31,043 nt of DNA, taken from IMG/VR virus record IMGVR_UViG_3300048818_000230, positions 64,001 to 95,043 of that record; one strand, 5' to 3'. Every line of letters starts with the position of its first letter. Within the stretch, counting starts at the first letter, position 1. Below are positions 8,248 through 29,843 of the stretch, piece after piece. The DNA comes from a virus. The position numbers and the translations under genes are program-made. The notes beneath the pieces were generated by a model. The model saw only the letters and a list, made by a program, of their open reading frames with translations, did not search any database and was not told the DNA's origin.

Positions 8248-8340
8248 TTGGGCGCAAGGCTCGTTCAGCAGCTTGCTGCTTACGTAGCTGCTAACCTTGC
8301 AGGCTCCTTCGTAGTGTCGCCGAGCTTGCCGGAGTCATGA
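8248..8340 (+). CDS. Possible 30-residue ORF between fibre genes (QLAAxVAAxL)
   Basis: A short frame begins after an in-frame TAA, with TTG as the only start, and ends in a TGA that overlaps the ATG of fibre 2 (ATGA). It codes an Ala-rich, helix-prone segment (VQQLAAYVAANLAGSF). The ten-residue core recurs after fibre 2. The overlap could couple translation of fibre 2, whose own GGAG is only two bases from its ATG. The TTG start, lack of a good ribosome binding site and small size keep confidence low. It may instead be a DNA-level repeat. Confidence 0.28.
   Translation: MGARLVQQLAAYVAANLAGSFVVSPSLPES
8269..8298 (+). repeat. 30-bp intergenic repeat, copy 1
   Basis: This 30-base stretch after fibre gene 1 matches 26 of 30 bases with 10654-10683 after fibre gene 2. 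Differences are two bases in each of two codons if read as QLAAxVAAxL. I found no third copy by eye. The intergenic gap here (8220-8336) holds little else. Confidence 0.7.
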
Positions 8341-10637
8341 CCACCGAACTGCTCGCCAACAGCCCGACGTTGGGCTATCCATCGTCGCTAACTACTCTCG
8401 CCGCTCCGATCACCACGACGCCGGCGTCTGGCACGGTCGAGACGATCACGACGGTCGGAGCTGCAATTACCCCTCTCCAAGGAGGACAGTTCCGCGCCAC
8501 CATAGTCGATGCTGCTGGCACGCCTCGAGAGATCATTCTCGTCACGGCAGGGCAGAATGGAACTACTTGGACAATCACACGAGGAGTAGAGGGATCTACT
8601 CCGGTGGTTCACGCGATTGGCGCGAGTATCTACCATATCTGGACTGCACTTGGTTTGGCGGGCGCGTTTTCTGCGCCTGTTGGGGCCGGCACTCCGGGCA
8701 GCGGCACGATGCCCGATGACATCACCGAAGCATGGGGTACGGGCTATTCGGGCAAGACGCGTCGTCCGCCAATTGCGGATGCCACAGAATACGACCTTCG
8801 CGCGTTCTACGCGGGGTCGTCGCAACCAGCCGATGTGCTCGGCCATATTCAGGACGGGCTCGCACGGTCGGCGCTGACTGGCGGCTGGCTGTTGGTCCCG
8901 GATAGCTACGGCCCCTGGGTCATAAGCGGCCAGATTTTCCCGCCGCCGAACTCGCGGATGAAAGGCCCCGGGCCGGTGTGGTTCAACCAACGCCTCGGCG
9001 ACAACGGCCACGCCAACACCGACTACCAGCTCCCGGCGTCACCGAACCTAATCGGCGAGGCGTGGATTCAGCTCGCGGCTGGCGCGAACTGCCCGATCCT
9101 CGGCCCCGACTACACGAACGCCGACGGCCTGCGAGGACCGTCCGCTGCGAGTGGCAGGTACTCGCAGTGGTTTACGGCGTATGGAATCGTGTTCGATCAC
9201 AACGGCCGCAATCAGACGACCGCTGGTTTGCGCGCGATTGACGTGCGCGACTCTTGGTACTTCAATTTCGCTCATTGTCGTCTTGTTGCGCCCTACGGAC
9301 AAGGTCTCGTCTACGACTATTGCAACACGTGTGACACGGTAAAGTTTTCTGCCGCTGGTGCCGCGACCAATGCGGCGAACGGTGTCGGCGACATCGCGAG
9401 CGGCACGAACACGATCAGCAACCCGACCGGCACATGGGCGCAAGGCGATTTCATTAGCAACGCGCTCATCCCCGCGGGCGCCTACGTGACCGTTGTAAGC
9501 CCGCTCACGTTCTCTGGTTCGCCCGCGACGGGTACGGCAACAGCCCAGGCGTTGACAAAGCTGACATTCATTGCGACGAACCTGATGGCGTGGCAGAACA
9601 TGACGACCGACAGTGACCATATTGGTGTTGATTGTCACGGTGCGTCGAGCGCGACAGGACTCATCGACGGCGCCGGTGGCCTTAGAATCTCCGGGCTTTT
9701 CGGATACTGCGTCGGAGGTCACAACCTTTGGCTGCGCGACACAGCAGCGAACGGTTTTTGCAGTCGCAACAGAATCGACGTGCGTCTTGATAACGCGACG
9801 AAACACAACTGTCGCATCGACTCGGGCGTTCACAGCAACAGCCTTGACATCGCCGCGATGGCACCGGGCATCAACAATACCCCCAACGACTCCGACGGCG
9901 GATGGGCCTCCGTGTTCTGCGACGGCACGGCAAACAAGATCAACGGTGTCGGCGACCGCTTCTCGGTCGGCCAGGTCCCGAACATGAGCTGCGTCGTCGC
10001 GTACGGCCCGAACGCCGAAGACAACATCGGGGGCATGGTCGGCGGGTCGGACCTCACGGCTGGTGTCGCGAAATACAACTGGCGTCCAACATCGGGGACC
10101 GCCCCGGGAACGGCCTACACGAACAGTTCCCCGGCTCCGCCCGCGTTCATGGTCCCGTGGACGGCGTTCGTGGACACCGACGGCACCACGTCCGCTGTTG
10201 TTGCGAACGCGGACGGGACGGCCCATAAGGTCTTGTCGTTCCCGCAAAGCGTTGACAGCTCGGCTGTCGCGTACATCGCACTCCCAACGGGTTGCCGTGT
10301 GTTCACGGTGTTCGCGATGCTTCTCAATCTCACGCCCGCGAACGCCGGAAACGCCGACCTGTACTGCGGCATGGCATCCGCGGTGAACGGTGTCACGCTC
10401 GACGGCGACAACCAGCTCTCCGCCAACCCCTACGTTTTCGCCGTCGCCGCGGTCGGGTCACTGCAAGCGACCAGCTTCGGGGGCGCCCTGTGGACTGGCA
10501 ACGCGGGTGTCGGCACCGCCCCGACCGGCGTCGTCGCGGTGCGATTCAAGCGGCTCGGCTCGAGCGGCGGGAGTGACACGCTCGCAGCATCACTCGGCTT
10601 GTACGGTGTCCGCGTCGTCCCGGTGCTCGTCGCGTAG
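8337..10637 (+). CDS. Tail fibre/spike protein 2, paralogous anchor, beta-helix type
   Basis: 766 residues. Residues 1-110 are the same anchor domain as fibre 1, without gaps. After a Gly/Pro linker (APVGAGTPGSGTMPDD), residues about 150-335 and 410-560 show beta-helix-like strands (GGWLLVPDSYGPWVI, GPGPVWFNQRL, DHIGVDCHGASSATGLIDG). They are interrupted at 345-407 by a small beta domain (SGTNTISNPTGTWAQGDFI, LIPAGAYVTVVSPLTFSG) of a type I know as an insertion in phage fibres. Residues 600-766 look like a C-terminal jelly-roll domain, different in sequence from that of fibre 1. Beyond the anchor the two fibres do not align by eye, so they probably bind different ligands. The start overlaps the short upstream frame (ATGA). 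Confidence 0.75.
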   Translation: MTTELLANSPTLGYPSSLTTLAAPITTTPASGTVETITTVGAAITPLQGGQFRATIVDAAGTPREIILVTAGQNGTTWTITRGVEGSTPVVHAIGASIYHIWTALGLAGAFSAPVGAGTPGSGTMPDDITEAWGTGYSGKTRRPPIADATEYDLRAFYAGSSQPADVLGHIQDGLARSALTGGWLLVPDSYGPWVISGQIFPPPNSRMKGPGPVWFNQRLGDNGHANTDYQLPASPNLIGEAWIQLAAGANCPILGPDYTNADGLRGPSAASGRYSQWFTAYGIVFDHNGRNQTTAGLRAIDVRDSWYFNFAHCRLVAPYGQGLVYDYCNTCDTVKFSAAGAATNAANGVGDIASGTNTISNPTGTWAQGDFISNALIPAGAYVTVVSPLTFSGSPATGTATAQALTKLTFIATNLMAWQNMTTDSDHIGVDCHGASSATGLIDGAGGLRISGLFGYCVGGHNLWLRDTAANGFCSRNRIDVRLDNATKHNCRIDSGVHSNSLDIAAMAPGINNTPNDSDGGWASVFCDGTANKINGVGDRFSVGQVPNMSCVVAYGPNAEDNIGGMVGGSDLTAGVAKYNWRPTSGTAPGTAYTNSSPAPPAFMVPWTAFVDTDGTTSAVVANADGTAHKVLSFPQSVDSSAVAYIALPTGCRVFTVFAMLLNLTPANAGNADLYCGMASAVNGVTLDGDNQLSANPYVFAVAAVGSLQATSFGGALWTGNAGVGTAPTGVVAVRFKRLGSSGGSDTLAASLGLYGVRVVPVLVA

Positions 10638-12442: not shown

Positions 12443-13285
12443 ATGGCTGAAGATTACACCGATACCGATTTTGCTTGGGCTGCAGGTTTTCTGGACGGCG
12501 AAGGATGTTTCCGTGTTGTCAGCCATCCAGCGCCTTCAGGAGTGATTGCGTGGCGGATACATTTGTCGGCCGGCCAAAAGAAGATTGAGCCACTATTGAA
12601 GCTTCAACGGATGTTTGGAGGTGCGATTAGGAAGCACAACTCCAAAAATGCCCACTATTGGCTGATAACTAACCCAGCTGAAGTACGGCAAATCGTACCG
12701 CTGTTGCTCCCGTATCTAACGGTCAAACAACCGGAGGCCTACAATCTTCTTCTGTACGCACGTACTTTTACGGGCACGCATAAGCTCTCACCGTCGACAC
12801 TTGCGGCGAGAAAGCGTCTTCTAACATCGCAAGACAAGTTGGTCTCTTACGCCACTCCGACCATTTTAGAGGAAGGCGCGGGCCTTGCATGGTCCGCTGG
12901 CTTTCTTGATGCTGAAGGCTGTTTTACGTTGTGCAAAGATGCAGCCAATGCGAACCCGGTCATTCGATCTGTTCTTGTCAGTGTATATCAGCTCTGCCGC
13001 GCACCGTTAGTACGTCTACACGATATTTTCAGTGTTGGGAGCGTGACTACGACTCCTAATACTATGGGCGCATTCGCATGGCGTGTGTATCGAGCACAGC
13101 ATGTGGCAGATGTAGTGGAACAAGTACGCCCATATCTCCTTATGAAACAAAGAGAGGCAGACATTGTGTCTCTCTATGCGAAGGAGATGACATATAGGGG
13201 TACAACTCTGCCCAAGATAACCATCGAGGTTCGACGCGCACTAATAAGTGAGCTAGAGGAAATCAGGCGATGCAATGCCAGATGA
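12443..13285 (+). CDS. LAGLIDADG homing endonuclease (free-standing)
   Basis: 280 residues with two copies of the LAGLIDADG motif: WAAGFLDGEGCF at residues 12-23 and WSAGFLDAEGCF at 150-161, with acidic residues (D18, E20; D156, E158) at the catalytic positions. One chain with two motifs acts as a pseudo-symmetric monomer cutting a long DNA target. AGGA lies five bases upstream of the ATG. It is wedged between the chaperone stop (12440) and the tape measure start (13275) and overlaps the latter by 11 bases, so the tape measure ribosome binding site lies inside this gene. Codons are visibly richer in A and T than in the neighbours, a sign of transfer. Target and activity are unknown. Confidence 0.9.
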   Translation: MAEDYTDTDFAWAAGFLDGEGCFRVVSHPAPSGVIAWRIHLSAGQKKIEPLLKLQRMFGGAIRKHNSKNAHYWLITNPAEVRQIVPLLLPYLTVKQPEAYNLLLYARTFTGTHKLSPSTLAARKRLLTSQDKLVSYATPTILEEGAGLAWSAGFLDAEGCFTLCKDAANANPVIRSVLVSVYQLCRAPLVRLHDIFSVGSVTTTPNTMGAFAWRVYRAQHVADVVEQVRPYLLMKQREADIVSLYAKEMTYRGTTLPKITIEVRRALISELEEIRRCNAR

Positions 13286-16200
13286 GTTCATCATCGAAAT
13301 CCTCTTACGAGCTCGCGACGAGGCAAGCCGACAGATCGATGCATTACAGGCAAAAGTCGATGGACTGCGTGCATCGGCTGCTGGTGGTCGCAGTACACAA
13401 GATCTCGAGCGTGGTTTCAGCGATGTTGGCGTTGCCGCAGGCGATTCTGCTGATGAGACGGCACGTCTTCGTACTGAGAACGAACGGCTGCGACGTGAAG
13501 GACCTCAGCATAGGTCGGCTCTTCAAGGTATCGCGCGTGATCACAATGTAGCTGCTGAAGCTGCTGGGGGCCATGCCGATGCGACATCTGGTGCAGCGGA
13601 TGAAACGGCTCGGATGATTGATGAAGTACGACGCGGACAGAGTGCTTTTCGTGATCAGAAAGTTGCCGTTGATGACACTGCTGTTTCCTACGAAAGGTTC
13701 AACAAAGCGGTGAGAGATGGTCGCATCTCTACATCAGATGCGCGTCGTGGATATCAGGACTTCTCAAACGATTTCAGGAAACTCTCTCGCGGTTTCGAGA
13801 CTGGATCGGAAGACGCTCTCCGATTCGGGCGTGCAGCCGATGAAGCTGGTGGCAAGCTCAAGAACATCCCACTAGCTCAGGCGAGCAACGACTTCGAGCG
13901 AGCGGTAGCGCGGATCTCTCGCGCCGGAGATAGTTTCGGCGTCAAGGTCATCTCTCTCTCTGCCGAGCTACGAGGGCTACGTGTCGTAGGCATCGTCGGC
14001 TTCATCCAGCAGCTCGACACGGCGATCGTGGGGCTCGCCGGCAGTCTGACGGCTGTTGCCTCTGATGCTGCTGAGGCCGGCGCGGCACTCGGCGGAGCGC
14101 TCGTCTCCGGGCTCGCGCAAGCAGTCCCAGTTGCGGCCGTTTTTCTGGCCGGCATCGAGCGCATCAAGAGCGTGCTCTCCGCAGTACAGCTCTCGACGCA
14201 GCTCAAGCAGCAGCAAGCGTTTGACCCCACTCAGCAAGCTGCGACTCAGCTTCAGACCGCTCAGGCGCTTACGGCTGCCCAGAATGGCCTCGTCGACGCC
14301 TACAACAACGTCACCACAGCGCAGACACAGGTCAAGGAATCTCAGCAGGCGCTCACCGATGCGCGGACCGCCGCGATTCGCAACATCATCGATCTGACAC
14401 TCGCCGAGAAGACTGCTTCTGAACAAGCGACTGGAGCTCGGCTTTCTCTCGCGCAGGCCGAGAATGCGCTCCAGCAGCTCGAGCAGACAGGTGGGTCGCA
14501 GCTTCAACTCCAGCAGGCCCAGCTTGCTGTCCAGGAGGCGCGCACAGGCGTCACGCAGGCCAACATCGCGGTTCCTCGGGCACAAGCTGATGCTGCGCTC
14601 GCACGTCGTCGCGGCGTCGCTGGTAGCTCCGGCGTGATGTCAGCGGTTGAGGCTGCGCGTCAAGCCCGGCTTGCTCAAACGCGAGCGCCGCAGCAGGTCC
14701 AGGCTGCGCAGGCGACGCTGCGACTGGCGCAGATGACTGCTGCTAGCCCGAGCGGATCCGAGACCTCGACGCAGGGCCAGCTCAACTACCTGCTGGGGCA
14801 GATGACCGCGCCCGAGAAGGTTCTTTACAACGCGCTCAGCACGCTCGAGGCACAGCTTCGCTCTCCCAACAGCCCGCTGCGCAGACTCAGCGATGCGATC
14901 GTCGCGCCGTTTGCTGACGCCGTGCAGAAGATCACGAGTCTTCTCGGCAATACGAAGTTCATGGCGGTGTTCGACACGCTTGCCAGTGCCATCGGGAAGG
15001 GACTACATCAAGTCCTCAGTCCCAAGGGGGGTACCAACTTCTTCGAGCAGATGGCGGCTGATGCGACCAAGAACGCGCCGATCATTGCCAACATCATCAG
15101 CAACATCGAATCGCTTTTCATGTCGGTGGCTAAGGCTGCCGCACCAGCTCTGCATACGTTGCTTGGATTCATCCAGGATTTCACCCATGATCTCGCCAAC
15201 ACTGAAGGAAGCGTAGCCGGACAGAAGCGGCTGACAGCAGAGTTCTCGCTGTGGGAGACGCGGCTCGAGCATATTCTCGAAGCTCTCCACTCGTTCCACA
15301 TGCTGCTGAAGGCGATCGGCGCCGATGCTGCACCGTCTGGCGACACCGTCTTTACGAGCCTCACCAAGTCAATGGATTCTGCAACAACGTGGGTTCAATC
15401 GCACGGGCCAGAGGTACGCAAGTTCTTCGCAGACGCAGTCTCCGTACTCGGAATCCTCGGCGGGATCTTGCTGAATCTAGGCAAGGTCATGGTCGCCGTA
15501 TTCGATTCTGGCGCGATGAAGGTCTTTGGGCAGTTCATCAACCAGACACTGATTCCGGCCATCGGTGATGTCGCGACAGTTGTCGGATTCCTTGTGACCC
15601 AACTACTTGCGCTCTTCAATCTGATCCCTGGCGGACGCATGATCCTTGAGGGACTCACCGCTGCATTTGTCGGAATGCTCGTTATGAACAAGGTGGCTGA
15701 TGCTTTCCTCGGTGCGACGCGAGCTGTCCAGGGACTCTGGGGAGCGCTGAAGGTCTTCCAAGCTACCGGGTCGATTACGGCGGCGTTCAAGACTTTTGCG
15801 GATCATATGAATGGCGTTCGCGATTCTGCACATCAAGCAACAGGGGAAGTCACGGATCTCGGCGATGCTCAGCAGATTGCTGCTGACAAAACCGTCAAGG
15901 GAACCGTATTGCAGGATGAGGCGACTGGGATTCAAGCGGTCGGCGATCGTTCTAAGGTGGCGGCGCCCGAGGTGGTTGCAGTTGGCGATGCAGAAGCTGG
16001 CATGGGCGATAAAGCCATCGCATCAAGTGTGCTTACTGGAGAGGCGACTGGAATTCGTGCGATGGGTGCTGCGGGCGCTGCAGCAGCGCTTGAACTCGCA
16101 CCATATCTTCTTGCGATGGCAGCTACTGCTGCTGCCGTTTTGGCAATCAATAAGCTACTCGGTAAGGCACCTCCGAATGTAAATACCGGTCCTGGCAGCC

Positions 16201-18941
16201 TTCCTGCTCCGGGGTATTCAGGGCCGGCCGCGTTGGCGGGCCTGAACATCTTCCCGACGACGGGTGAATCGCTGAAGTCTGTAGAGAACACGGTGGCCGG
16301 GCAGGGATACACCCAGGCGCAGATCAACCATATCGACGCGATGCTGAAGGGGGGCAGTTTCTTCCCCGGCGGAAAGTATCAGCCTGTCCCGGCGTCAAAG
16401 GCGGCGCAAAGCGCTGTCAGTCAGTCGCAGAAGAATCTAGCGATAAACACGTCGGCCAGTTCGCCGTCAGGATTCGCGCGCGCATTCTTGCAGCAGATCG
16501 GTGCGCCTGTGACTCCCGCCAGTATGTCGGCACTCAATGCTTGGTGGAATGCCGAGGAAGGCGGCCATGTGCTTCAGCCGGGGCACGGCGGCGCTAATAA
16601 CCCGTTCGAGATTGTCGGTGGATATGGCGTTCCGACGACTGGGGCAGCTAACTCAGTTGGCGTGAGCAACTTTGCGACACCGCAACAGGGTATCCAGGCA
16701 GCGATCAACTACTTCAAGGCCCAGTCGGGCATATCAAACGTTATCGGGGCGTTCCAGCAGCCGGGTGCTACTACGGCGTCGATTGAGGCGGCTGTGCGTG
16801 GACTTGGACCTAATGCATTTGGCTCGGATACTAATGCAGCGTGGGGCGGTGGTTCGCCGTCAACGTCTACGCAGGCTTCGACCGCACCTTCCAGCACAGG
16901 TGGTGGAGGAGGAACAGGAGCTGGTGCGGGTGCTCCGGCGGCACCAAAGACACCATCAGGACCTCCTATGCCAAAGGGACTCCCCTCGTCTGTCGCGTCT
17001 GGGCTCAGTGCATTCGGTCAGAAGATCTTCAATGCGATCCCCGGCGTCGGGGTGCCGAATACGCTCGCTTTCATCGGTGCCGATCCAGCAAATGCGATTC
17101 AGATGATCAGCACTGCATTTACTTCAGTGATCTCTGGTCTGAATCAGTTGCGCAGCGTGGGAGAGAAGCTGCAGCCACTGTCGAGGAAAATCTCCGACTT
17201 CACTAACTTTGCATCGAACTTCATGAATGACACGTGGGGGCAGATAACACAGTTTCTGGCGCAGCTCACGACCAGACTTACCGACGCGGGCATATTGGCG
17301 GGTTTCACGAGCGGGACTCAAGGCATGTCGTTCGGTCAGATTGATCGCAGACCTGCTGGCGTAGGCGACGTCATCTCTGCTGGAGTTGGTGCCGGTGATC
17401 AAGCTGTTATCGGAGGGCTCCAGGAGGAACGCGCTGGGCTGCAGGGACAGCAGTCAATTGCCACGAGGATGATCGCGGGAATCGTCGCGCAGCGCAAGAA
17501 GTCGAAGCTCATCACAAATGCCAAGAAGCGCGCGGCAGCACTGGCCGGGCTCAATACTCAATACGCCCTGTGGGAAGCCGCATCGACAGCTCTTGGCGAC
17601 CAGATTGCGACGAACATTCAGGCGACCTACCAGGCCGAGCAGCAGGTAGTGACGGACGAGCTACAGCAGGTCTCCAACGTCTACGGTACCCAGCTCGCTG
17701 GCCTCACGGCCCAACAGGGCGGTGCTCAGGCACTTGGGCGCTTCGACCTCCTGCCGGCCATCGATCAGGCAATGGCGGTCTCCGCGGCCAATCAAGTCAC
17801 AGCGCTCCAAGACGCTCTGCAGAAAGCGAGCGCAATGGGTGACGCAACGACGGTGTCGACGATTCAGCAGCAGATCGATCAGCTCAACCAGTCCATTGTC
17901 CAGTACACGGCGCAGGCGCTGCAAGACGCCATCTCGGGGGTTCAGCAAGCAGCGCAAACAACCTCTTCCGGTGCATCTCTGTTCGCTGGCCTCGCGAGCG
18001 TCGCCACAACGCAGGGCAACTTTGGGCTCGCCGGCGCACTTGCTAATCGAGGCTTCCAGACATCGATCAGTGGTGACCAATCGCAGATAGCTTCCTACGC
18101 CGGATCTGGAGCTAACTTGCAAGCGATCGCAGGCGGGGACTTCTCGAGCGTTTCTGCGTCGTCGCTGCTCGGTATGGCGATCGTAGCTGGCAATACTGGC
18201 GCGCAAGCAACGATCATTCAAGCGCTCGATGGGATCGGAACTGATCTCGCGACGAATACCCAGGCGCTTGCCGACAACACAGCTTCAACTGACAACGCAG
18301 CATCGGCTTACGTGCAGTCGCGCGGGCAGTTCCAGAGCGGCGTCTACGGAGGACTCGCGCAGATCATCCAGACCATCGGTCAGACAACTGGATCGACTGA
18401 CGTTGGGACACTCATGCAGGCTTACCAAGGCAGCAATAACTCACTAAATATTGCCAACGCAGGGCTTGCTGGAACGCTCAACAGCGACTTCGGCGTGAAT
18501 GTCCAAGGCTTGAGCCCCGGCGATTTGATCAGCAAGCTCATGGGTCTGAATCTGTCGGGGATGGAAGCTGGCATGGATCCAGCTCAGGCAGCGGAATTCG
18601 AGAACCTGATCAACAGCCTGATCACGAATACGCAGGCGATCACACAGAACAATCTCCAGCTTGCCACGCTGAATGGCCAGCTCACTCAGCCCCAGTCCTT
18701 TGCTTCGAGTCTGTGGACGAACTTCCGTGACGCGATCTTCACCGGCATGGGTGGCTTGCAACCTGCTTACGCCTCGTCGTTGGGCATCGCTGCAGCGACC
18801 AACCCAGCCTTCACCGGCACAGGTATCGCTAACTCGAGCACGACGACACACATCAACGTCTCCACGAATCCGGTTTCCCCCGAGGTAAACCCATACACCC
18901 AAGGCAAGCAGATTGCCTTCTCGATGAAGACCCCCGTCTGA
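13275..18941 (+). CDS. Tape measure protein with lysozyme-like domain
   Basis: 1888 residues, the largest gene of the window, placed after the chaperone as expected. Residues 1-220 and about 310-460 are charged or Gln/Ala-rich coiled coils (ASRQIDALQAKVDGL, SLAQAENALQQLEQ). Hydrophobic segments lie near 235-300, 720-745, 770-800 and 930-955 (LELAPYLLAMAATAAAVLAI). Residues about 1065-1192 form a lysozyme/transglycosylase-like domain (FARAFLQQIGAPVTPASM, WWNAEEGG, NPFEIVGG, NSVGVSNFATPQQGIQAAI), with E1094 or E1095 as candidate acid; a Pro/Gly/Thr linker follows. The rest is helical and Gln/Ala-rich. The protein sets tail length and is ejected at infection. At about 0.15 nm per residue it implies a tail near 280 nm. 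AGG lies seven bases before the ATG. Confidence 0.9.
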   Translation: MPDEFIIEILLRARDEASRQIDALQAKVDGLRASAAGGRSTQDLERGFSDVGVAAGDSADETARLRTENERLRREGPQHRSALQGIARDHNVAAEAAGGHADATSGAADETARMIDEVRRGQSAFRDQKVAVDDTAVSYERFNKAVRDGRISTSDARRGYQDFSNDFRKLSRGFETGSEDALRFGRAADEAGGKLKNIPLAQASNDFERAVARISRAGDSFGVKVISLSAELRGLRVVGIVGFIQQLDTAIVGLAGSLTAVASDAAEAGAALGGALVSGLAQAVPVAAVFLAGIERIKSVLSAVQLSTQLKQQQAFDPTQQAATQLQTAQALTAAQNGLVDAYNNVTTAQTQVKESQQALTDARTAAIRNIIDLTLAEKTASEQATGARLSLAQAENALQQLEQTGGSQLQLQQAQLAVQEARTGVTQANIAVPRAQADAALARRRGVAGSSGVMSAVEAARQARLAQTRAPQQVQAAQATLRLAQMTAASPSGSETSTQGQLNYLLGQMTAPEKVLYNALSTLEAQLRSPNSPLRRLSDAIVAPFADAVQKITSLLGNTKFMAVFDTLASAIGKGLHQVLSPKGGTNFFEQMAADATKNAPIIANIISNIESLFMSVAKAAAPALHTLLGFIQDFTHDLANTEGSVAGQKRLTAEFSLWETRLEHILEALHSFHMLLKAIGADAAPSGDTVFTSLTKSMDSATTWVQSHGPEVRKFFADAVSVLGILGGILLNLGKVMVAVFDSGAMKVFGQFINQTLIPAIGDVATVVGFLVTQLLALFNLIPGGRMILEGLTAAFVGMLVMNKVADAFLGATRAVQGLWGALKVFQATGSITAAFKTFADHMNGVRDSAHQATGEVTDLGDAQQIAADKTVKGTVLQDEATGIQAVGDRSKVAAPEVVAVGDAEAGMGDKAIASSVLTGEATGIRAMGAAGAAAALELAPYLLAMAATAAAVLAINKLLGKAPPNVNTGPGSLPAPGYSGPAALAGLNIFPTTGESLKSVENTVAGQGYTQAQINHIDAMLKGGSFFPGGKYQPVPASKAAQSAVSQSQKNLAINTSASSPSGFARAFLQQIGAPVTPASMSALNAWWNAEEGGHVLQPGHGGANNPFEIVGGYGVPTTGAANSVGVSNFATPQQGIQAAINYFKAQSGISNVIGAFQQPGATTASIEAAVRGLGPNAFGSDTNAAWGGGSPSTSTQASTAPSSTGGGGGTGAGAGAPAAPKTPSGPPMPKGLPSSVASGLSAFGQKIFNAIPGVGVPNTLAFIGADPANAIQMISTAFTSVISGLNQLRSVGEKLQPLSRKISDFTNFASNFMNDTWGQITQFLAQLTTRLTDAGILAGFTSGTQGMSFGQIDRRPAGVGDVISAGVGAGDQAVIGGLQEERAGLQGQQSIATRMIAGIVAQRKKSKLITNAKKRAAALAGLNTQYALWEAASTALGDQIATNIQATYQAEQQVVTDELQQVSNVYGTQLAGLTAQQGGAQALGRFDLLPAIDQAMAVSAANQVTALQDALQKASAMGDATTVSTIQQQIDQLNQSIVQYTAQALQDAISGVQQAAQTTSSGASLFAGLASVATTQGNFGLAGALANRGFQTSISGDQSQIASYAGSGANLQAIAGGDFSSVSASSLLGMAIVAGNTGAQATIIQALDGIGTDLATNTQALADNTASTDNAASAYVQSRGQFQSGVYGGLAQIIQTIGQTTGSTDVGTLMQAYQGSNNSLNIANAGLAGTLNSDFGVNVQGLSPGDLISKLMGLNLSGMEAGMDPAQAAEFENLINSLITNTQAITQNNLQLATLNGQLTQPQSFASSLWTNFRDAIFTGMGGLQPAYASSLGIAAATNPAFTGTGIANSSTTTHINVSTNPVSPEVNPYTQGKQIAFSMKTPV

Positions 18942-21581: not shown

Positions 21582-22205
21582 ATGCCGACGCGTCTTTGCT
21601 CGCTCGTTGATTGTGGACGACCGCACGAGGCTCATGGTTGGTGCTCGTCACATTACCATCGGTGGTTACGGTGGGGTAGTCCACTAATCGTCAAGAGCGG
21701 TGGGAGTCCGGCTGATCGTTTTTGGTCGAAGGTAGATAAGGACGGTCCAATTCCCATCCATCGTCCCAAACTCGGTCCATGCTGGATTTGGACAGCGACG
21801 ACTTCAAGGGGTTATGGACAGTTTTGGCGAAGAAAGGATAATGGGGGAACCGTTGCTGCTCATCGATACGCTTACGAACTGCTGGTTGGGACCATTCCTG
21901 ACTATTTGACGCTAGATCACCTTTGTCACAATGACTCGGGATGCCGTGGCGGAGAGACTTGCATACATCGCGCATGTGTCAATCCTGCGCATTTAGAGCC
22001 AGTGTCAATTGGCGTAAACGCTTTACGAGGAACAAGTTTTGCCGCCAACAATGCGCGCAAGACGCACTGTATTCGGGGACATGAATTCACGCCAGACAAC
22101 ATCTATACCAATCCGAGTCAGCCAAGAGGTCGGTTTTGCATCACGTGTAGACGCGATGCTGGACGCGATAACAGGCGACGCAACCAGCTAAATAGGAGTT
22201 CGTAA
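21582..22205 (+). CDS. HNH homing endonuclease (free-standing)
   Basis: 207 residues. Residues 6-24 form a zinc-finger-like C-x4-C-x9-C-x2-H set. The core has FWSKV, CWIWTATTSRGYGQF, AHRYAYELLVGTIP, then LDHLCHN and CVNPAHLEPV: the HNH signature with D112, H113, N134 and H137 plus cysteines binding zinc. A second C-x3-H...C-x2-C set (residues 163-189) ends in a basic tail. This is the standard phage HNH endonuclease architecture. The gene splits the tail-tip operon between the LamG gene and a fibre gene, and its stop overlaps the next start (TAATG). AGGAG for the next gene lies inside its 3' end. Composition is more AT-rich than the neighbours. The start could use a different codon; no good site precedes the ATG. 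Confidence 0.9.
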   Translation: MPTRLCSLVDCGRPHEAHGWCSSHYHRWLRWGSPLIVKSGGSPADRFWSKVDKDGPIPIHRPKLGPCWIWTATTSRGYGQFWRRKDNGGTVAAHRYAYELLVGTIPDYLTLDHLCHNDSGCRGGETCIHRACVNPAHLEPVSIGVNALRGTSFAANNARKTHCIRGHEFTPDNIYTNPSQPRGRFCITCRRDAGRDNRRRNQLNRSS

Positions 22206-23272: not shown

Positions 23273-26266
23273 ATGGCGCTTGCCCACGCGACCGGCTTTC
23301 CTGTTGACGCCTTCGCGACGGGCACGCCATCGTTGTCAATTACGCCGGCACATGTCGGCGATATCGTCATTCTCGGTGTCTACACCAGCGTCACCGGGAA
23401 TCACATCACTGCGGTCTCGAGCCCTAATGTCTCGTGGAAGGGGACCGCGGCCAAGGTAGACGAGAACGCCAGCCAGGGTGGGCACTTGGAGATCTGGTGG
23501 GGCATCGCCACGGCGATAACCGCTGGTGCCGTCGCCGTTACATGGAGCACGGCTAACGCCGCGTTTACTGATTGGTGTGTCGACTCTTGGACGGGTCAGG
23601 GCTCGGGGACGTGGACTCTCGGTGGTACCGGCCAGACTGATACCAATACGGCCAGCACGACGGCCGCCAAGCCGCTAATCACCACGCAGAGTGTTTTGCC
23701 GACGGGGATCTTCGCTTGGCTCGATCTTTCCGTCACCACAGCAACGCCAGTCAACGGGACACCAGCGAACTGGACCTATCACACCGCGGTCGGTGGCGAT
23801 AACCAAGCTGCTGGGCTCAACCTCGCTGCCAGTACATCCGCTGGGCCGACATGGGGGACTGTCACCTCATCGGCGAGCTTCGCCATCTCGGCCGAGTTCT
23901 ATGTTGCCACTCTCTCCGTAGCGCTAACCCCATCGACGGCTGCGACTTCAATTGCTATCGGGGGCGCCAAAGCGTCTGGTCTACTTTCGCCGACATCGAA
24001 CGCAGTCGGTGGATCATCCGGTGCGTTGACTGCTGCTGCACTCCTATCTGCTTCAAGCGACGGTGTCAGCAGCGTGTCATGTTCGGTGATCGCCGGCGTC
24101 ACTATCCCATTGGTCCCTGTGTCAGTAGCTACAAGCGCAACGTCGACAGCAATTGTCACGGCGCAGAACTTGACGCCAGTAGCAACTGCTTCGAGCAGCG
24201 CGACGTGCACCACTGTGACGGTGATGTCGGTTGGATGGGTGAATTACAACGCAGGAACTTGGTCGTGGAGCAATTCTCTTGATGTCTCGTATTGGATCAA
24301 TCCCCCTGGTTCGGTAACAGCGGCCTGGACGACGGGATCTCCATTCCTGTGGGAGACCGCTGGGATCATTCTCACGTTCGGCGTCTCGCTTACGCCACAC
24401 AGCGCTGCGACGAGCAACGCCTTTGTGACGGTCACGACACAAGTGGTTGGCACACCTGTACCAATTGCATTGACTGGTGTCGGAGGGATCGTAGGGTCGG
24501 TCGGTGGGGCGATGTTGGGCTCCGTTGTGTCACAGCTCACGATCGCGCCGTCGGCAAGCTCATCGTCGAGAGCCACATGCATGCTTTCAGTGCCTGCTGC
24601 GGTGGTTACTCCATCGCCGTCCCAGGGAACTTCTTCTGCGAGCTGCACAGTTTCCTATCCACAAGCGGTTTACCCGCTTCTGCTGACTGGTGTTGGTGGC
24701 ACGCTACGGTCGGTGGGAACAACGATGCTGGGGTCGATTGTTCCTCTGATCCTTCTCACCCCGTCGGCGACGTCTTCCTCCGGTGCCGTATGCACGCTAA
24801 CTATACCGACAGCAATGTCGCTTACTCCGACGAGCGCTGCCACTTCTGCCGCGACGGCATTGGTTTTCAGGCCAGGCATTGTCGTTGTCACGCCAACAAG
24901 CGCCGCAATCTCTTCTGCTTCGGCAACGGTTACCAGGCCGAGCGCTGTCCCGCTGACACCTTCATGTACCAGCACGTCTACGACGACTTGCTCGGTCGTA
25001 TTCCCAGGCGAGGTCGTCACTCCGATACCGACGCCGATCACGCCCGTCTTCGTCAGCACCACGCTGGGGCCAGCAGTCAAGTGGGATTGGTATCTGGCGA
25101 CACCGATCTTCTCAAACAACGCCTTCCAAGGCTTCTCAAACATCGGTTTGCTCGATACGGCACAGAATCGCAGCGTGGCGTTGTCTCTAAACGGCGTGGA
25201 GTCTGCAGCATTCAGCGTCAACATCCTCGACTCTATCGCCGAGCAAATCTGGCTGCACACGCTGATCAACTGCTTGGTCCTGTATCGCAATGACGAGATT
25301 GCGTGGAGCGGACCCCTGTGGACTGCTCGCCCCACCGTAAACGCGACGACTCAGACGCTGCAGGTCACTGCGGTCGGTTGGTTCCAGTACCTACTCAAGC
25401 GCCTGCTGAAGTGTGGCGTCATTGGCGTCAACCCAATGGTAGGGCCGACCTCGACCACCAGCGGGATTACGCATACGCCCGGTAACGGCTTGGGGTTGGA
25501 TCCAACAGCGATTGCAGTCGACCTCATTGAAAGGACCAACTTCGAGTATCCGCTTCCAATCAGCGTCGGATCCGTTGAGCCTAACCCACATAACATTCTC
25601 TGGAACGTCACCTATCAGCAGCTCCAGAACATCGGTCAGGCAATCCAGACGCTGTCGAATGTTGAGGGCGGCTTCGACTTCCGCGTCGACCCAGCGACAT
25701 TGCAGCTCGACTTCTACTACGGGCTCGTCAAGGGCGGCAGCACAGTGTACGGCCGCGGTCAGGATCGACCAAACGCTGTCTTCAGCTGCCCAGGCAACCT
25801 GACCGAGCTCACACCGACCGAGGACGCTTCCAACGTCGCGACGCAGATGACTGTGCTCGACCAGCTCACCAACTCTTCCCAGTATCCAGGACCGGGTGAG
25901 ATAACGGAGAGCATTCACACCTACGGAATGATGCAGGACACCGCGTCGCTATCCGACATCAACAGCCTCACGATCACCACTGCTTATGCCGAGTCCGAGG
26001 TGCTCTTCCGCGAAGCTCCCGAAGTCATCTGGACATTCACACCGTTTGCCTATCACGGTGATGCAGACGTTCCGCAGCCATTCGTCGACTACGATATCGG
26101 AGATTTCGTTTATCTGACGGCGAATTACGGGTGCTTGCAGATCCCCCTTCCCACAGCCGGCACTGGACCGATGCCGATCAGGATGTTCTCCTTCACAATC
26201 ACGCTTGACAACGAGGGCAACGAGATGATTTCCAATGTCCAATCCGTCTTTACGAGTACAAGCTGA
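23273..26266 (+). CDS. Tail hub / tail-associated protein with long N-terminal beta repeat array
   Basis: 997 residues. The C-terminal 400 residues (about 595-997: VKWDWYLATPIFSNNAF, RSVALSLNGVESAAFSVNIL, LVLYRNDEIAWSGPLWTARP, LQVTAVGWFQYLLKRLL, YQQLQNIGQAIQTLSNVEGG, DIGDFVYLTANYG) match the ReqiPepy6 Gp37-like / Tal-type hub of actinophage tails. The N-terminal 215 residues are a beta-sandwich (GDIVILGVYTSVTGN, HLEIWWGIATAITAG) related in layout to the start of the protein at 26499. In between, residues 216-578 hold about twelve 18-21 residue Ser/Ala/Thr repeats with LTPxSAATSxA, listed separately. The hub anchors the tip and contacts Dit. Such a long N-terminal extension on a hub is unusual. 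Only a weak ribosome binding site is visible. Confidence 0.72.
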   Translation: MALAHATGFPVDAFATGTPSLSITPAHVGDIVILGVYTSVTGNHITAVSSPNVSWKGTAAKVDENASQGGHLEIWWGIATAITAGAVAVTWSTANAAFTDWCVDSWTGQGSGTWTLGGTGQTDTNTASTTAAKPLITTQSVLPTGIFAWLDLSVTTATPVNGTPANWTYHTAVGGDNQAAGLNLAASTSAGPTWGTVTSSASFAISAEFYVATLSVALTPSTAATSIAIGGAKASGLLSPTSNAVGGSSGALTAAALLSASSDGVSSVSCSVIAGVTIPLVPVSVATSATSTAIVTAQNLTPVATASSSATCTTVTVMSVGWVNYNAGTWSWSNSLDVSYWINPPGSVTAAWTTGSPFLWETAGIILTFGVSLTPHSAATSNAFVTVTTQVVGTPVPIALTGVGGIVGSVGGAMLGSVVSQLTIAPSASSSSRATCMLSVPAAVVTPSPSQGTSSASCTVSYPQAVYPLLLTGVGGTLRSVGTTMLGSIVPLILLTPSATSSSGAVCTLTIPTAMSLTPTSAATSAATALVFRPGIVVVTPTSAAISSASATVTRPSAVPLTPSCTSTSTTTCSVVFPGEVVTPIPTPITPVFVSTTLGPAVKWDWYLATPIFSNNAFQGFSNIGLLDTAQNRSVALSLNGVESAAFSVNILDSIAEQIWLHTLINCLVLYRNDEIAWSGPLWTARPTVNATTQTLQVTAVGWFQYLLKRLLKCGVIGVNPMVGPTSTTSGITHTPGNGLGLDPTAIAVDLIERTNFEYPLPISVGSVEPNPHNILWNVTYQQLQNIGQAIQTLSNVEGGFDFRVDPATLQLDFYYGLVKGGSTVYGRGQDRPNAVFSCPGNLTELTPTEDASNVATQMTVLDQLTNSSQYPGPGEITESIHTYGMMQDTASLSDINSLTITTAYAESEVLFREAPEVIWTFTPFAYHGDADVPQPFVDYDIGDFVYLTANYGCLQIPLPTAGTGPMPIRMFSFTITLDNEGNEMISNVQSVFTSTS
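23918..25006 (+). repeat. About twelve coding repeats, LTPxSAATSxATxTVxxP
   Basis: Protein-level repeat inside the hub. Clear copies are SLTPHSAATSNAFVTVTT, VVTPSPSQGTSSASCTVSYP, ILLTPSATSSSGAVCTLTIP, MSLTPTSAATSAATALVFRP, VVVTPTSAAISSASATVTRP and VPLTPSCTSTSTTTCSVVFP; earlier copies (from VALTPSTAATSIAI) are more diverged. Each unit would form two short strands around a Ser/Ala turn. DNA copies are diverged, so this is not a recent expansion. Confidence 0.75.
24455..24745 (+). repeat. Two copies of a GVGGxxxSVGxxMLGS unit inside the hub
   Basis: PVPIALTGVGGIVGSVGGAM plus LGSVVS (24455-24532) and VYPLLLTGVGGTLRSVGTTM plus LGSIVP (24668-24745) are clearly homologous. Each leads into a Ser-rich repeat (LTIAPSASSSS, ILLTPSATSSS), so a larger block of about 70 residues was duplicated. 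Confidence 0.7.
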
Positions 26267-26499
26267 TGGGACGCGTAACGCGTAGCGCTCATCTGGGCAC
26301 GACCATCAGCCAAGGCGCCGATAAGACGAAGGCGCTCGAACGCACTATCCAGACACTGCCGGGAAGCAACATCCTTTACGGGGCCGGCGCTCCTCCTTCT
26401 TCTGTTGGCACCAACGGACAGCTCTATGTCCAAGAAGACGGCGCAGCGCTCACGACGATTTATCAGAAGCGCTCTGGAGTCTGGGTAGGGATCGTCTAA
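26266..26499 (+). CDS. Small tail-tip protein
   Basis: 77 residues, overlapping both neighbours (TGATG and TAATG), so translated by coupling. The C-terminal half (LYGAGAPPSSVGTNGQLYVQ, TIYQKRSGVWVGIV) has the GxGxPxxxxGxxGxxYxx...IYxKxxGxW pattern common in phage fibre proteins. The N-terminal half is helical and charged. It probably bridges the hub and the enzyme-bearing protein after it; the function is inferred from position. Confidence 0.65.
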   Translation: MGRVTRSAHLGTTISQGADKTKALERTIQTLPGSNILYGAGAPPSSVGTNGQLYVQEDGAALTTIYQKRSGVWVGIV

Positions 26500-29400
26500 T
26501 GGCTTGGGCTTTCGTTCAGGGAACATCTGCGAACCCCAACACCGCTACGCCTTCAGTCGCGTGGCTGGGTGCCACGACTGCCCCACATCTACTCGTGTGT
26601 GCTGTGCAGATAGGAACGAGCGGAAACGTTTACACCGGAGTATCGGTAGCAGATAGTCGCGAGACTTGGAACCTGATCGCACTGTCACCGGCGGCGGCCG
26701 ATAAAGGAATGGTCGCTTTGTTCTGGGCCGTCGCCATCGGCGGTGCTGCAAACACCGTGACTGCGACGTGGACCGGAGGAACTGCTGGCGCTCTCAGTTC
26801 ATCCATTGCCATAATGGAGTATTCGGGCATCGCAGTCAGTTCGCCGGTTGATGGTTACAACTCCGCGGTAGGCACTGTACCAGGAACCGATTGTGGCCCG
26901 GTTTTCGCGCTGTCGGGTGAATTGATGGTCGTAGCTGCGGCAGCCTATGCCAAGCCTGGCATGACTTGGAGTCCTCAAGCCTTGTTTGTCACTCGAGAGT
27001 TCCAGGATGCGGCTACGTTGTATGTGGAAGATGCTACGGTCGTCAGTCCGAGTGACGGTGAATACGGCATAACTGCTTCCGTACCATGGGCTAGCGTCGG
27101 TGCGTCGTTCACACTTTTACCTCCGGTTTACCTGTATCCTGTTTCTTCTGCTGCGACAAGTAGTGCGACTGCAGCAGTTACATATCCAAGTGTGGCACTT
27201 CATCCATCGGCTGCCGCGTTTAGTTCTGCTACTGCATCGGAAGCGATACCGGGGCCGGTACCATTAGCTCCGTCAAGCGTTTCCACATCCAACGCGATAT
27301 GCACAGTCACAGGAGGACGATTCGTCCAAGCAGGCGATTCCGGCTCAGCTCTTCCCTCCGGTGTCTCGTGGAATTTGCCCTTCTTCGTCGAGCGTGGTAA
27401 CGGAGTTGTGTGCGCGATCCATGTTTCTGGTGGCCACAGCGTCCTCGGTGTCGCGGGTGTAGGCGGCTTGTGGCAGCGGGCTGATGGCATCAGCGCGTCG
27501 ACACCTGTTGGAGATCTCGAGTGGTGGTGCTGTATCGACGCAGCGGGAGGCGCCCAGTCAATCACCGTCACGACGACTGGTGGCCTCTACACCGCATACG
27601 CCTCAGAATGGTTAGGCCCCACGGCGTTCTCGGCGGCCGGCACAGCCACATCCACGGACACCAACCCCTCTCTGACGGTCACACCGGCTGCAGCCAACAG
27701 CGTGGTGCTCGTCGCGGCAGCAGGCTTGGCTCCATTCCTTCTCGGCCCTGGTCCTATCATAGCTCCGCTTCTCACGCCTAATGCGATCTCGCTCTCGGCG
27801 GCTACTGGTGCCGCGTCATGGGGGCAGCCGCTTGCGTTGAGTTCCGCAGTGGCGACATCAATTGCATCTGCGACAACGCGAGCTGCAAGCCGAATCGTTC
27901 CTGCTTCTGTTGCTACGTCGCATTCCGTCAACGCTGTTACTGCAGCGACAGTCAGCGGAGGGGGTTCCGCTGGCATCATGTGGATTATCATGGAGAACAC
28001 AGACTGGTCAACTGTTGTTGGTGATTCGGGTTATTGCGGCAATTTGTCAAGAACATATGGGACAGCTACGAATGTGCGCGCGCTTGGTCACTACAGCGCC
28101 CCTAACTACCTTGGCTACGCCTCGGGTATTGACTGTTATAACACCTCAAGCCCTGACTATGACTCGACGATTGTCAATGATAGTGCGGACACCAACTTCG
28201 CCGCGCGCACGACGATCTTTGACCAGCTTCATGCAGCAGGAATGAAGTGGCGCTATTACCTTGAAAGCGGCACGCCTAGTTATCATGAGCCTGGAAGCTA
28301 CTTCCCGCGCGTCACTTCATTGGATGCCGGAAGTTATGGAGTTGCCTTTTCCTTGGGCTCCTACGCCAATATCACTGCCGATCTAAACAGCGCAAGTCCT
28401 CCGCGGTTTATGTGGCTCGGCCTGACTAACAGCGATAGTGGTAGTAATGATCTTGGCGGAAATAGTATCACTACAGGAGGAGATACATTCCTATCTTCGA
28501 TCATCCCTGTGATTCAGGGGACAAGCTGGTATGCAGCAGGTGGTCAGGTTCTTGTCTTCTTCGACGAGGGCGCATCAGGCAGTGTTGGGGACGCAGATGG
28601 TGGTCCCATCGGATGTATCGTCGTCTCACTGGCGACTTACCTCGCAGCCAACTACACGACACAAATCAAGGCTGCTGCAATACTGGGATCGACTGAGACT
28701 GCTCTCGGTCTCAGCAAGCTGGGTACGGCAGCTCTTTCGGGCGCAGGCACTCTCGGCACGCTACTCACGACCGGCGGTGGAGGCTCGGGCGCTCCAGTGA
28801 ATAACGTGGCGCCATTGATCAGTGGCAGCACTGTCGAAGGCAATACGTTGTCCACGACACCGGGCACCTGGACGAACTCGCCGACTGGATACACTTACCA
28901 GTGGCAGAGCAACGGTGTCAATGTTGGCACGGGCGCCAGCACTTACCCGACAGTGGTGGGTGATGAAACCCACACGATTACCGTGACTGTAACGGCTGTC
29001 AACGGATCCGGGAGTGCTTCTAAGATTTCAAATACATTCGGACCGATCACAGCCGTGACTTCGATCGTGCCCTTTTCCAACGGAGTAAGTGCTCCCGGAC
29101 CGGGCGCCAACAATCACGGGGGCCAGCCATGGACGGTCAAGTTCAACGAGAACTGGGATGGTAACGACGCCGTTACAGGAGCGTCCTATGGAGCTACATC
29201 ATATGGTAACGATAATGGCACCAACCTCGGTGCTTGGGCAAATCCTCATTGGGCCGTTCTAAACGGGTCCTCTACTAACGGAAATGTATCTTCAAACCAC
29301 GTATGGGTAACGAGTGGTTTTCTGAATCTGTTGCAGACCACAGGTTTAGGGGCGTGGGTTAGCACCGGAGACTCATGGGGTCAATCACCAGCATTCAACT

Positions 29401-29843
29401 TCATCCGAGGATACTTTGAGGCACGCATATATCTCCCTGGATCTGGTGCCTCAATCTATAACTGGCCAGCATTTTGGGCCGTTGGAAACGACTCGGCCGC
29501 GTGGCCTGACGGAGGAGAGATCGATGTTGCTGAAGGTCTGGGTACTGTACAGCCCACTTTCCATTATGGTACGTCTTCAAGCCCACAACAAAGTAACACC
29601 GCCCCTGGCGGTACCTACTCAAATGCATTTCATGTTTACGGAGCGAATTGGTATGCGTCTGGTAGTAGCGAAGTGATTGACTTCTACTATGATGGCGTGA
29701 AGGTATACACAGCAACGGGCACCATTGACACCGTAGGAAATGGCATGTCTTTGATCTGTAATGTGGGGGATGATGTACCCTACGGTGGAACACCTGCCAG
29801 CAATGTTACTATGCAGGTTGATTACGTAAGGCTCTGGCAGTAG
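26499..29843 (+). CDS. Multi-domain tail protein: phosphoesterase-like, Ig-like and GH16-like domains
   Basis: 1114 residues; AGGG eight bases upstream of an ATG overlapping the previous stop. Residues 1-208 and about 273-420 are two beta-sandwiches (MVALFWAVAIGGAANTVTAT; LEWWCCIDAAGGAQSITVTT). Ser/Ala repeats lie at 209-272 and near 421-487. Residues 491-745 match the phosphoesterase (acid phosphatase/phospholipase C-like) family: IMWIIMENTDW, HYSAPNYLGYASGIDC, FDQLHAAGMKWRYYLES, LVFFDEG, STETALGLSKLG. Residues 766-852 are an Ig-like domain (TWTNSPTGYTYQWQSNGVNV). Residues 856-1114 are GH16-like: GYFEARIYLPG, WPAFWAVG and the catalytic EIDVAE, with E1007 nucleophile and E1012 acid/base. GH16 enzymes cut beta-1,3/1,4-glucans or related glycans. 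The likely role is stripping host surface polymers at the tail tip. The phosphoesterase appears to lack one usual metal-site motif. Confidence 0.83.
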   Translation: MAWAFVQGTSANPNTATPSVAWLGATTAPHLLVCAVQIGTSGNVYTGVSVADSRETWNLIALSPAAADKGMVALFWAVAIGGAANTVTATWTGGTAGALSSSIAIMEYSGIAVSSPVDGYNSAVGTVPGTDCGPVFALSGELMVVAAAAYAKPGMTWSPQALFVTREFQDAATLYVEDATVVSPSDGEYGITASVPWASVGASFTLLPPVYLYPVSSAATSSATAAVTYPSVALHPSAAAFSSATASEAIPGPVPLAPSSVSTSNAICTVTGGRFVQAGDSGSALPSGVSWNLPFFVERGNGVVCAIHVSGGHSVLGVAGVGGLWQRADGISASTPVGDLEWWCCIDAAGGAQSITVTTTGGLYTAYASEWLGPTAFSAAGTATSTDTNPSLTVTPAAANSVVLVAAAGLAPFLLGPGPIIAPLLTPNAISLSAATGAASWGQPLALSSAVATSIASATTRAASRIVPASVATSHSVNAVTAATVSGGGSAGIMWIIMENTDWSTVVGDSGYCGNLSRTYGTATNVRALGHYSAPNYLGYASGIDCYNTSSPDYDSTIVNDSADTNFAARTTIFDQLHAAGMKWRYYLESGTPSYHEPGSYFPRVTSLDAGSYGVAFSLGSYANITADLNSASPPRFMWLGLTNSDSGSNDLGGNSITTGGDTFLSSIIPVIQGTSWYAAGGQVLVFFDEGASGSVGDADGGPIGCIVVSLATYLAANYTTQIKAAAILGSTETALGLSKLGTAALSGAGTLGTLLTTGGGGSGAPVNNVAPLISGSTVEGNTLSTTPGTWTNSPTGYTYQWQSNGVNVGTGASTYPTVVGDETHTITVTVTAVNGSGSASKISNTFGPITAVTSIVPFSNGVSAPGPGANNHGGQPWTVKFNENWDGNDAVTGASYGATSYGNDNGTNLGAWANPHWAVLNGSSTNGNVSSNHVWVTSGFLNLLQTTGLGAWVSTGDSWGQSPAFNFIRGYFEARIYLPGSGASIYNWPAFWAVGNDSAAWPDGGEIDVAEGLGTVQPTFHYGTSSSPQQSNTAPGGTYSNAFHVYGANWYASGSSEVIDFYYDGVKVYTATGTIDTVGNGMSLICNVGDDVPYGGTPASNVTMQVDYVRLWQ
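27123..27317 (+). repeat. Three more Ser/Ala/Thr repeats of the hub type
   Basis: VYLYPVSSAATSSATAAVTYP-like, SVALHPSAAAFSSATASEAI and VPLAPSSVSTSNAICTVTGG in the 1114-residue protein follow the same 20-residue plan as the hub array, linking two separate genes. A looser set lies near 27759-27965. Confidence 0.65.

Follow-up and report, generated by a model that had tools for sequence, protein, structure and literature searches.

The last 31,043 bases of the 95,043-base IMG/VR virus record IMGVR_UViG_3300048818_000230 (the whole of this stretch is referred to below as the window) contain a gene for a predicted accessory tail protein of 1114 amino acids, in which a phosphoesterase-like domain of the PF04185 type is joined to a domain of glycoside hydrolase family 16 (GH16). 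The two ends of the record (G+C 0.596) are identical over 127 bases, a sequence feature that suggests a complete or circular genome. An initial annotation of the window had proposed both domains within the interval 27969–29840, which corresponds to residues 491–1114 of the 1114-residue open reading frame (ORF), and all of the motifs that it quoted are present: MEN at residues 498–500, HYSAPNYLG at 531–539, FFDEG at 687–691, WPAFWAVG, and EIDVAE at 1007–1012. The protein is built from the following parts.

26499..29843, plus strand: accessory tail protein gene, 1114 amino acids, uninterrupted open frame
26499..27959, plus strand: N-terminal half, residues 1–487, beta-rich modules and Ala/Ser/Thr repeats
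27960..28769, plus strand: predicted PF04185/AcpA-fold domain (alkaline phosphatase superfamily), residues 488–757, from a hidden Markov model (HMM) and an AlphaFold2 (AF2) model
28794..29057, plus strand: Ig-like linker domain, residues 766–853, from tblastn
29064..29840, plus strand: GH16 catalytic domain (laminarinase-like, EIDxxE type), residues 856–1114, from phmmer and an HMM

An HMM of 47 PF04185 relatives, built without the window sequence, matched residues 491–746 with 109 bits (independent E-value 1.2e-35), and a second window-free HMM, made from six GH16 domains of viral origin, matched residues 967–1114 with 105 bits (2.1e-34); shuffled copies reached a maximum of 5.7 and 7.6 bits, respectively, against the two models. 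The presence of both domains in one protein, as initially annotated, was thereby confirmed at the level of sequence, far beyond chance. The model that Pfam itself holds for PF04185 gave 18.1 bits for the domain, under its cut-off of 23, and the same scan returned a PF03935 fragment at 15–18 bits and did not report PF00722 for residues 856–1114; scans of PHROGs and NCBIfam detected neither the PF04185-like nor the GH16 domain. The average identity of the phosphoesterase domain to its relatives is just 21–30%. When this domain was used as a single-sequence query, IMG/VR, GTDB genomes and phage records yielded no relative, and its relatives were reached only with alignment queries.

The AF2 model of the PF04185-like domain, calculated from 48 sequences, had a predicted local distance difference test (pLDDT) score of 80 and a predicted template-modelling (TM) score of 0.85. 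The best match among solved structures was AcpA (PDB entry 2d1g), with a Z-score of 22.9 and a deviation of 2.9 Å over 250 residues, followed at Z-scores of 21–22 by Streptomyces and fungal phospholipases C and by the plant enzyme NPC4. In both fold and ancestry, the domain is thus placed by profile and model in the PF04185 superfamily of AcpA and the phospholipases C. The active-site residues were placed through their correspondence with AcpA, which was taken from a PDB profile alignment and from family alignments.

27993..27998, plus strand: E499-N500, equivalent to E43/N44 of AcpA and E59/N60 of SapM, metal ligands, kept
28095..28097, plus strand: S533, equivalent to S175 of AcpA and S95 of SapM, nucleophile, kept and conserved in 48 of 48 relatives
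28284..28286, plus strand: H596, equivalent to H288 of AcpA and H160 of SapM, kept
28455..28457, plus strand: G653 (codon GGC), at the position of AcpA H350, SapM H204 and NPC4 H264, catalytic His lost
28563..28568, plus strand: D689-E690, equivalent to D386/D387 of AcpA and D238/E239 of SapM, metal ligands, kept
28671..28673, plus strand: A725, His in 47 of 48 relatives (HYSLLRTIE motif), lost

The metal and nucleophile residues are thus accompanied by H596 and by H531, N536, Y537 and D662, all of which are kept, and the loss falls on the NDxH loop, where His is found in every relative of two alignments (48 of 48 and 47 of 47) and Gly653 in the window protein. The only His residues of the domain are 531, 578 and 596, with none in residues 597–757, and the spacing around the affected position is comparable to that in SapM (34 residues from H204 to D238 and 36 residues from G653 to D689). 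An alignment error was rejected as the origin of the apparent loss, as the two alignments agree and no His lies beyond residue 596; a retrieval bias was likewise rejected as the origin of the conservation, as the relatives were found using MEN and HPSxPNY patterns, which do not cover the NDxH loop. Further changes include Ser in place of D551, which is conserved in 47 of 48 relatives, and extend to nine of the 26 family columns that are conserved at about 90% or more. The loss of H725 is less decisive and was not counted as proof, since this His is missing from AcpA and RePLC as well.

The importance of the NDxH residue is documented for three enzymes. In SapM, a short-form member of the family from Mycobacterium, alanine mutants of E59, N60, S95, H160, H204, D238 and E239 had no activity on p-nitrophenyl phosphate; H204 corresponds to H350 in AcpA, and AcpA H350A is likewise inactive (PMC6635428). 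In NPC4, H264 has been proposed as the activator of the water that frees the phospho-enzyme, and the activity of H264A was dramatically reduced or abolished (PMC9837106). Since Gly653 replaces the His that SapM, AcpA and NPC4 need, ordinary phosphatase turnover by the window domain appears unlikely from its sequence, and the working phosphoesterase hydrolase of the initial annotation could not be upheld. In terms of residues, the domain retains the metal and nucleophile set of an active PF04185 phosphatase or phospholipase and lacks its catalytic His.

The GH16 domain has retained its catalytic triad, with the nucleophile E1007, D1009 and the acid/base E1012 lying at 29517..29534 (plus strand) in the EIDVAE motif. 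The three residues are in register with all aligned relatives and invariant, so that the motif is intact as originally described. A phmmer search of the PDB returned the laminarinases 5wut (1.7e-10) and 2vy0 (5.1e-9), and GH16 searches over 22 and 296 genomes gave few relatives, all of them diverged. In the structural check proposed with the initial annotation, the phosphoesterase fold matched AcpA, as described above. The GH16 model, which was calculated from seven sequences and examined for the concanavalin-like beta-jelly-roll fold of the family, was poor (pLDDT 51); its leading Foldseek matches were GH16 enzymes at TM-scores of <0.5, with 17–25% identity in the alignments. From its sequence, the domain is probably an intact glycanase; its target would be a beta-linked glycan at the host cell or in its surroundings, although no particular substrate can be assigned. 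GH16 is a polyspecific family. Because of this polyspecificity, because the phosphoesterase domain lacks the required His and because the searches identified no host, the earlier suggestion of a host surface with both a phosphodiester-linked (teichoic-acid-like) polymer and a beta-glucan layer is unsupported.

The phosphoesterase-type and GH16 domains are joined by the Ig-like linker at residues 766–853, of a type widespread in phage proteins, which in tblastn shares 40–52% identity with proteins of Sinorhizobium, Rhizobium, Microcystis and Brevundimonas phages, in agreement with the Ig-like linker first annotated there. Residues 1–487 gave no matches in Pfam, PHROGs or NCBIfam and, judged by position only, they probably form the virion-attachment and spacer part of the protein. 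Homology of these N-terminal modules to a 997-residue hub protein encoded upstream was tested and was not significant (E-value 0.22). Neither a signal peptide nor a membrane segment was seen at the N-terminus of the 1114-residue protein, where the hydropathy never rises above about 1.2.

The gene lies in a tail module with the order tape measure, distal tail protein (Dit), LamG-like protein, HNH gene, small genes, 997-residue hub, 77-residue gene, 1114-residue gene and 298-residue gene, for which the following assignments were made.

13275..18941, plus strand: tape measure protein, 1888 amino acids (phrog_6090, 4.5e-7; a segment with 59% identity to the related phage L105)
18941..20566, plus strand: Dit (PF22768, 1.4e-8; phrog_33, 1.5e-12)
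23273..26266, plus strand: tail hub/tip protein, 997 amino acids (46% identity over 437 residues to the syntenic protein of L105)
26266..26499, plus strand: 77-residue gene directly upstream of the 1114-residue gene, with one-base overlaps with both neighbours

As Dit anchors the module, it is assigned to a siphophage-type tail tip, and the placement of the gene at a siphophage tip in the initial annotation, here in an operon with tape measure, Dit and hub, is borne out. The hub, the 77-residue gene and the 1114-residue gene follow each other with successive one-base overlaps, the L105 counterpart of the hub matches minor-tail PHROGs, and the 298-residue gene downstream is of a virion type (phrog_3398). 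Phage L105, the Dit of which is 45% identical, shares the tape measure, Dit, LamG-like and hub genes; there, the hub runs straight to a 319-residue gene, and both the 77-residue gene and the gene combining the two domains are absent. These two genes are therefore regarded as accessory to the tail-tip locus, where they form one element, and a virion location of the 1114-residue protein is inferred.

Several other features of the tail region were observed. The hub proteins of L105 (14151–17504) and the window (23273–26266) are conserved in their C-terminal halves (46% identity) and differ in their N-terminal halves, which contain proline/basic repeats in L105 and Ala/Ser/Thr repeats in the window. 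The tail module includes two homing-type endonuclease genes, a LAGLIDADG gene at 12443–13285 (PF00961, 5e-15) and the HNH gene at 21582–22205 (phrog_826, 1.6e-50), neither of which was seen at the matching place in L105. Adjacent large fibre-type proteins are encoded at 5439–8219 and 8337–10637; an N-terminal segment of 113 residues is 77% identical between them, after which they diverge, and the former matches tail-fibre and decoration PHROGs. This pair may possibly represent alternative fibres or spikes. Neither the hub nor a 764-residue protein, the gene of which precedes the structural genes, had any match in phage records, and a helicase-type protein gave weak, scattered matches only, so that the host was not identified by these searches.

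Domains of the PF04185 type were found in seven further viral contigs (L014, the same contig as L102; and L101, L103, L104, L110, L111 and L112). The N-termini that were read (L014, L101, L104 and L110–L112) are of an export type, with signal- or membrane-like segments, and the alignments shown for the viral relatives retain the NDxH His. In L104 (998–2854), a GH99-type domain, tested with Pfam, is fused to the phosphoesterase; L111 (3151–4989) encodes the same type of fusion by sequence resemblance; in L101 (6761–9189), a phosphoesterase is combined with CBM96 and a GH99 gene is adjacent; and a Chloroflexi protein (L038, 4764–7361) unites phosphoesterase and GH99 domains. The minor tail proteins of Curtobacterium phages (Pippin15 gp9 and AddiRose gp10) contain GH16 and a GDSL/SGNH hydrolase in one protein, and GH16 domains are also found in Sinorhizobium phage phiM9 and several viral contigs. 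No GH16 domain was present near any examined phosphoesterase locus and no phosphoesterase domain near any examined GH16 locus, the pairing of the two was seen nowhere else in limited searches, and searches of open-licence literature on GH16 or PF04185 on phage tails found no account of it. The initial annotation had regarded two hydrolase folds in tandem as an undescribed architecture; this stands for the specific fusion of the two families, which is unique within these limited sequence searches, and falls for the general arrangement, as the Curtobacterium proteins already combine two hydrolase folds in a single tail protein and the GH99 fusions already pair a phosphoesterase with a glycosidase.

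Two observations were made among the loci examined. At L002 (4972–6429), an ORF of peptidoglycan-binding and expansin-like type is followed by a single TAG stop and then by a complete GH16 domain in the same frame, which may be explained by a nonsense change or, alternatively, by a readthrough fusion. An ORF of a Mycobacterium paragordonae plasmid (L010, 117–2894), which is missing from the plasmid gene table, combines a Gly-rich PE_PGRS-like N-terminus with a C-terminal PF04185 domain.

The reading that we favour, with about even confidence, is that the protein serves a tail tip of siphophage type as an accessory for receptor interaction, in which GH16 cuts and the phosphoesterase fold binds a phosphorylated ligand without normal turnover. 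The gene would have been added to the tail operon behind the hub gene and ahead of the tail gene that follows, and the tail protein would dock on the cell; the phosphoesterase-fold domain would then most likely bind a phosphorylated surface ligand through its metal site, without cleavage or with very slow cleavage, and would hold GH16 on its substrate, in the manner of a carbohydrate-binding module, while the latter cuts a glycan close by. The domain families, the status of their motifs, the position of the gene and its absence from L105 were established. Against this reading, the place of the protein in the virion and the activity of GH16 are predictions, the latter with a poor structure model (pLDDT 51), the binding role is argued from one missing residue only, and no ligand can be named for this host.

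Both domains could instead be active hydrolases, the phosphoesterase acting by altered chemistry (for example, a metal- or side-chain-activated water) on a phosphodiester or phosphorylated glycan. The metal and nucleophile set and H596 are complete, pairings of phosphoesterase and glycosidase recur in viral and bacterial sequences (fused in L104, L111 and L038 and adjacent in L101), and tail-borne teichoic-acid phosphodiesterases of the GDPD type are known (PMC10194240); however, the missing His is invariant in all examined relatives, its replacement by alanine abolishes or strongly reduces activity in three enzymes, and two more near-invariant positions are altered (D551 to S and H725 to A), which together make this alternative unlikely. 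The changes in nine of 26 highly conserved columns, and the abundance of spacer repeats in the rest of the protein, would also suit a decaying relic that is a mere spacer between the tail anchor and GH16. Such decay is harder to reconcile with a fold predicted with good confidence and with the retention of the five metal and nucleophile residues together with H531, N536, Y537, H596 and D662 at only 21–30% average identity, and we consider it somewhat less likely again. The export-type N-termini of other viral PF04185 proteins (L014, L101, L104 and L110–L112) raise the question of whether the 1114-residue protein leaves the infected cell by release or export and is not a virion part; as it has no signal, lies inside a tail operon with one-base overlaps and shows a tail-style spacer and Ig architecture, this is improbable. 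The most speculative proposal, to which very little weight is given, is a mechanism-based adhesin: metal-activated Ser533 would attack a host phosphoester and, in the absence of the His, the phospho-enzyme would not be released, giving covalent or quasi-irreversible attachment while GH16 digests the glycan. If this were true, a recycled phosphatase would provide irreversible adsorption.

The pairing of the two domains and the selective loss of the His are unusual. A domain of the bacterial acid-phosphatase type has here been recruited by a phage and placed in a predicted tail protein beside a GH16 glycanase, apparently disarmed and with its metal site kept. A domain that binds would be a novel kind of phage receptor-binding module, one that senses phosphate; a domain that still cuts would require the rule of an essential His, drawn from SapM and AcpA, to be revised. 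Furthermore, the accessory genes of the PF04185 type in several viral contigs, repeatedly paired with glycosidases, suggest a class of envelope enzymes in phages that has been overlooked.

In comparison with known systems, the window domain resembles SapM in the order and spacing of its E/N, S, H and D/E residues and in its nucleophile and metal residues, and the long-form AcpA of Francisella in fold (Z-score 22.9). Unlike these enzymes, it has Gly at the equivalent of SapM H204 and AcpA H350 and lies in a phage tail protein without a signal peptide. With the GH16 laminarinases (ULam111, 5wut; Pyrococcus LamA, 2vy0; Zobellia LamA), the second domain shares the EIDxxE triad, the WPAFW segment and the C-terminal strand pattern, whereas it is diverged and fused to tail-style modules and a phosphoesterase fold. 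The GH99–PF04185 fusions (L104, L111 and L038) also join a PF04185 domain to a glycoside hydrolase; however, their partner is GH99 and not GH16, the catalytic His is kept, and the N-termini of L104 and L111 are of an export type. Teichoic-acid phosphodiesterases of the GDPD type, from the baseplate of Lactobacillus phage Ld17 and from enterococcal phages, likewise place a phosphoester-related domain on the tail, although they belong to another family (PF03009) and their activity has been reported (PMC10194240). Pippin15 gp9 and AddiRose gp10 of the Curtobacterium phages similarly unite GH16 with a second, unrelated hydrolase fold in one tail protein; in contrast to the window protein, their second enzyme is an SGNH esterase, their GH16 domain is N-terminal and they contain no PF04185 domain.

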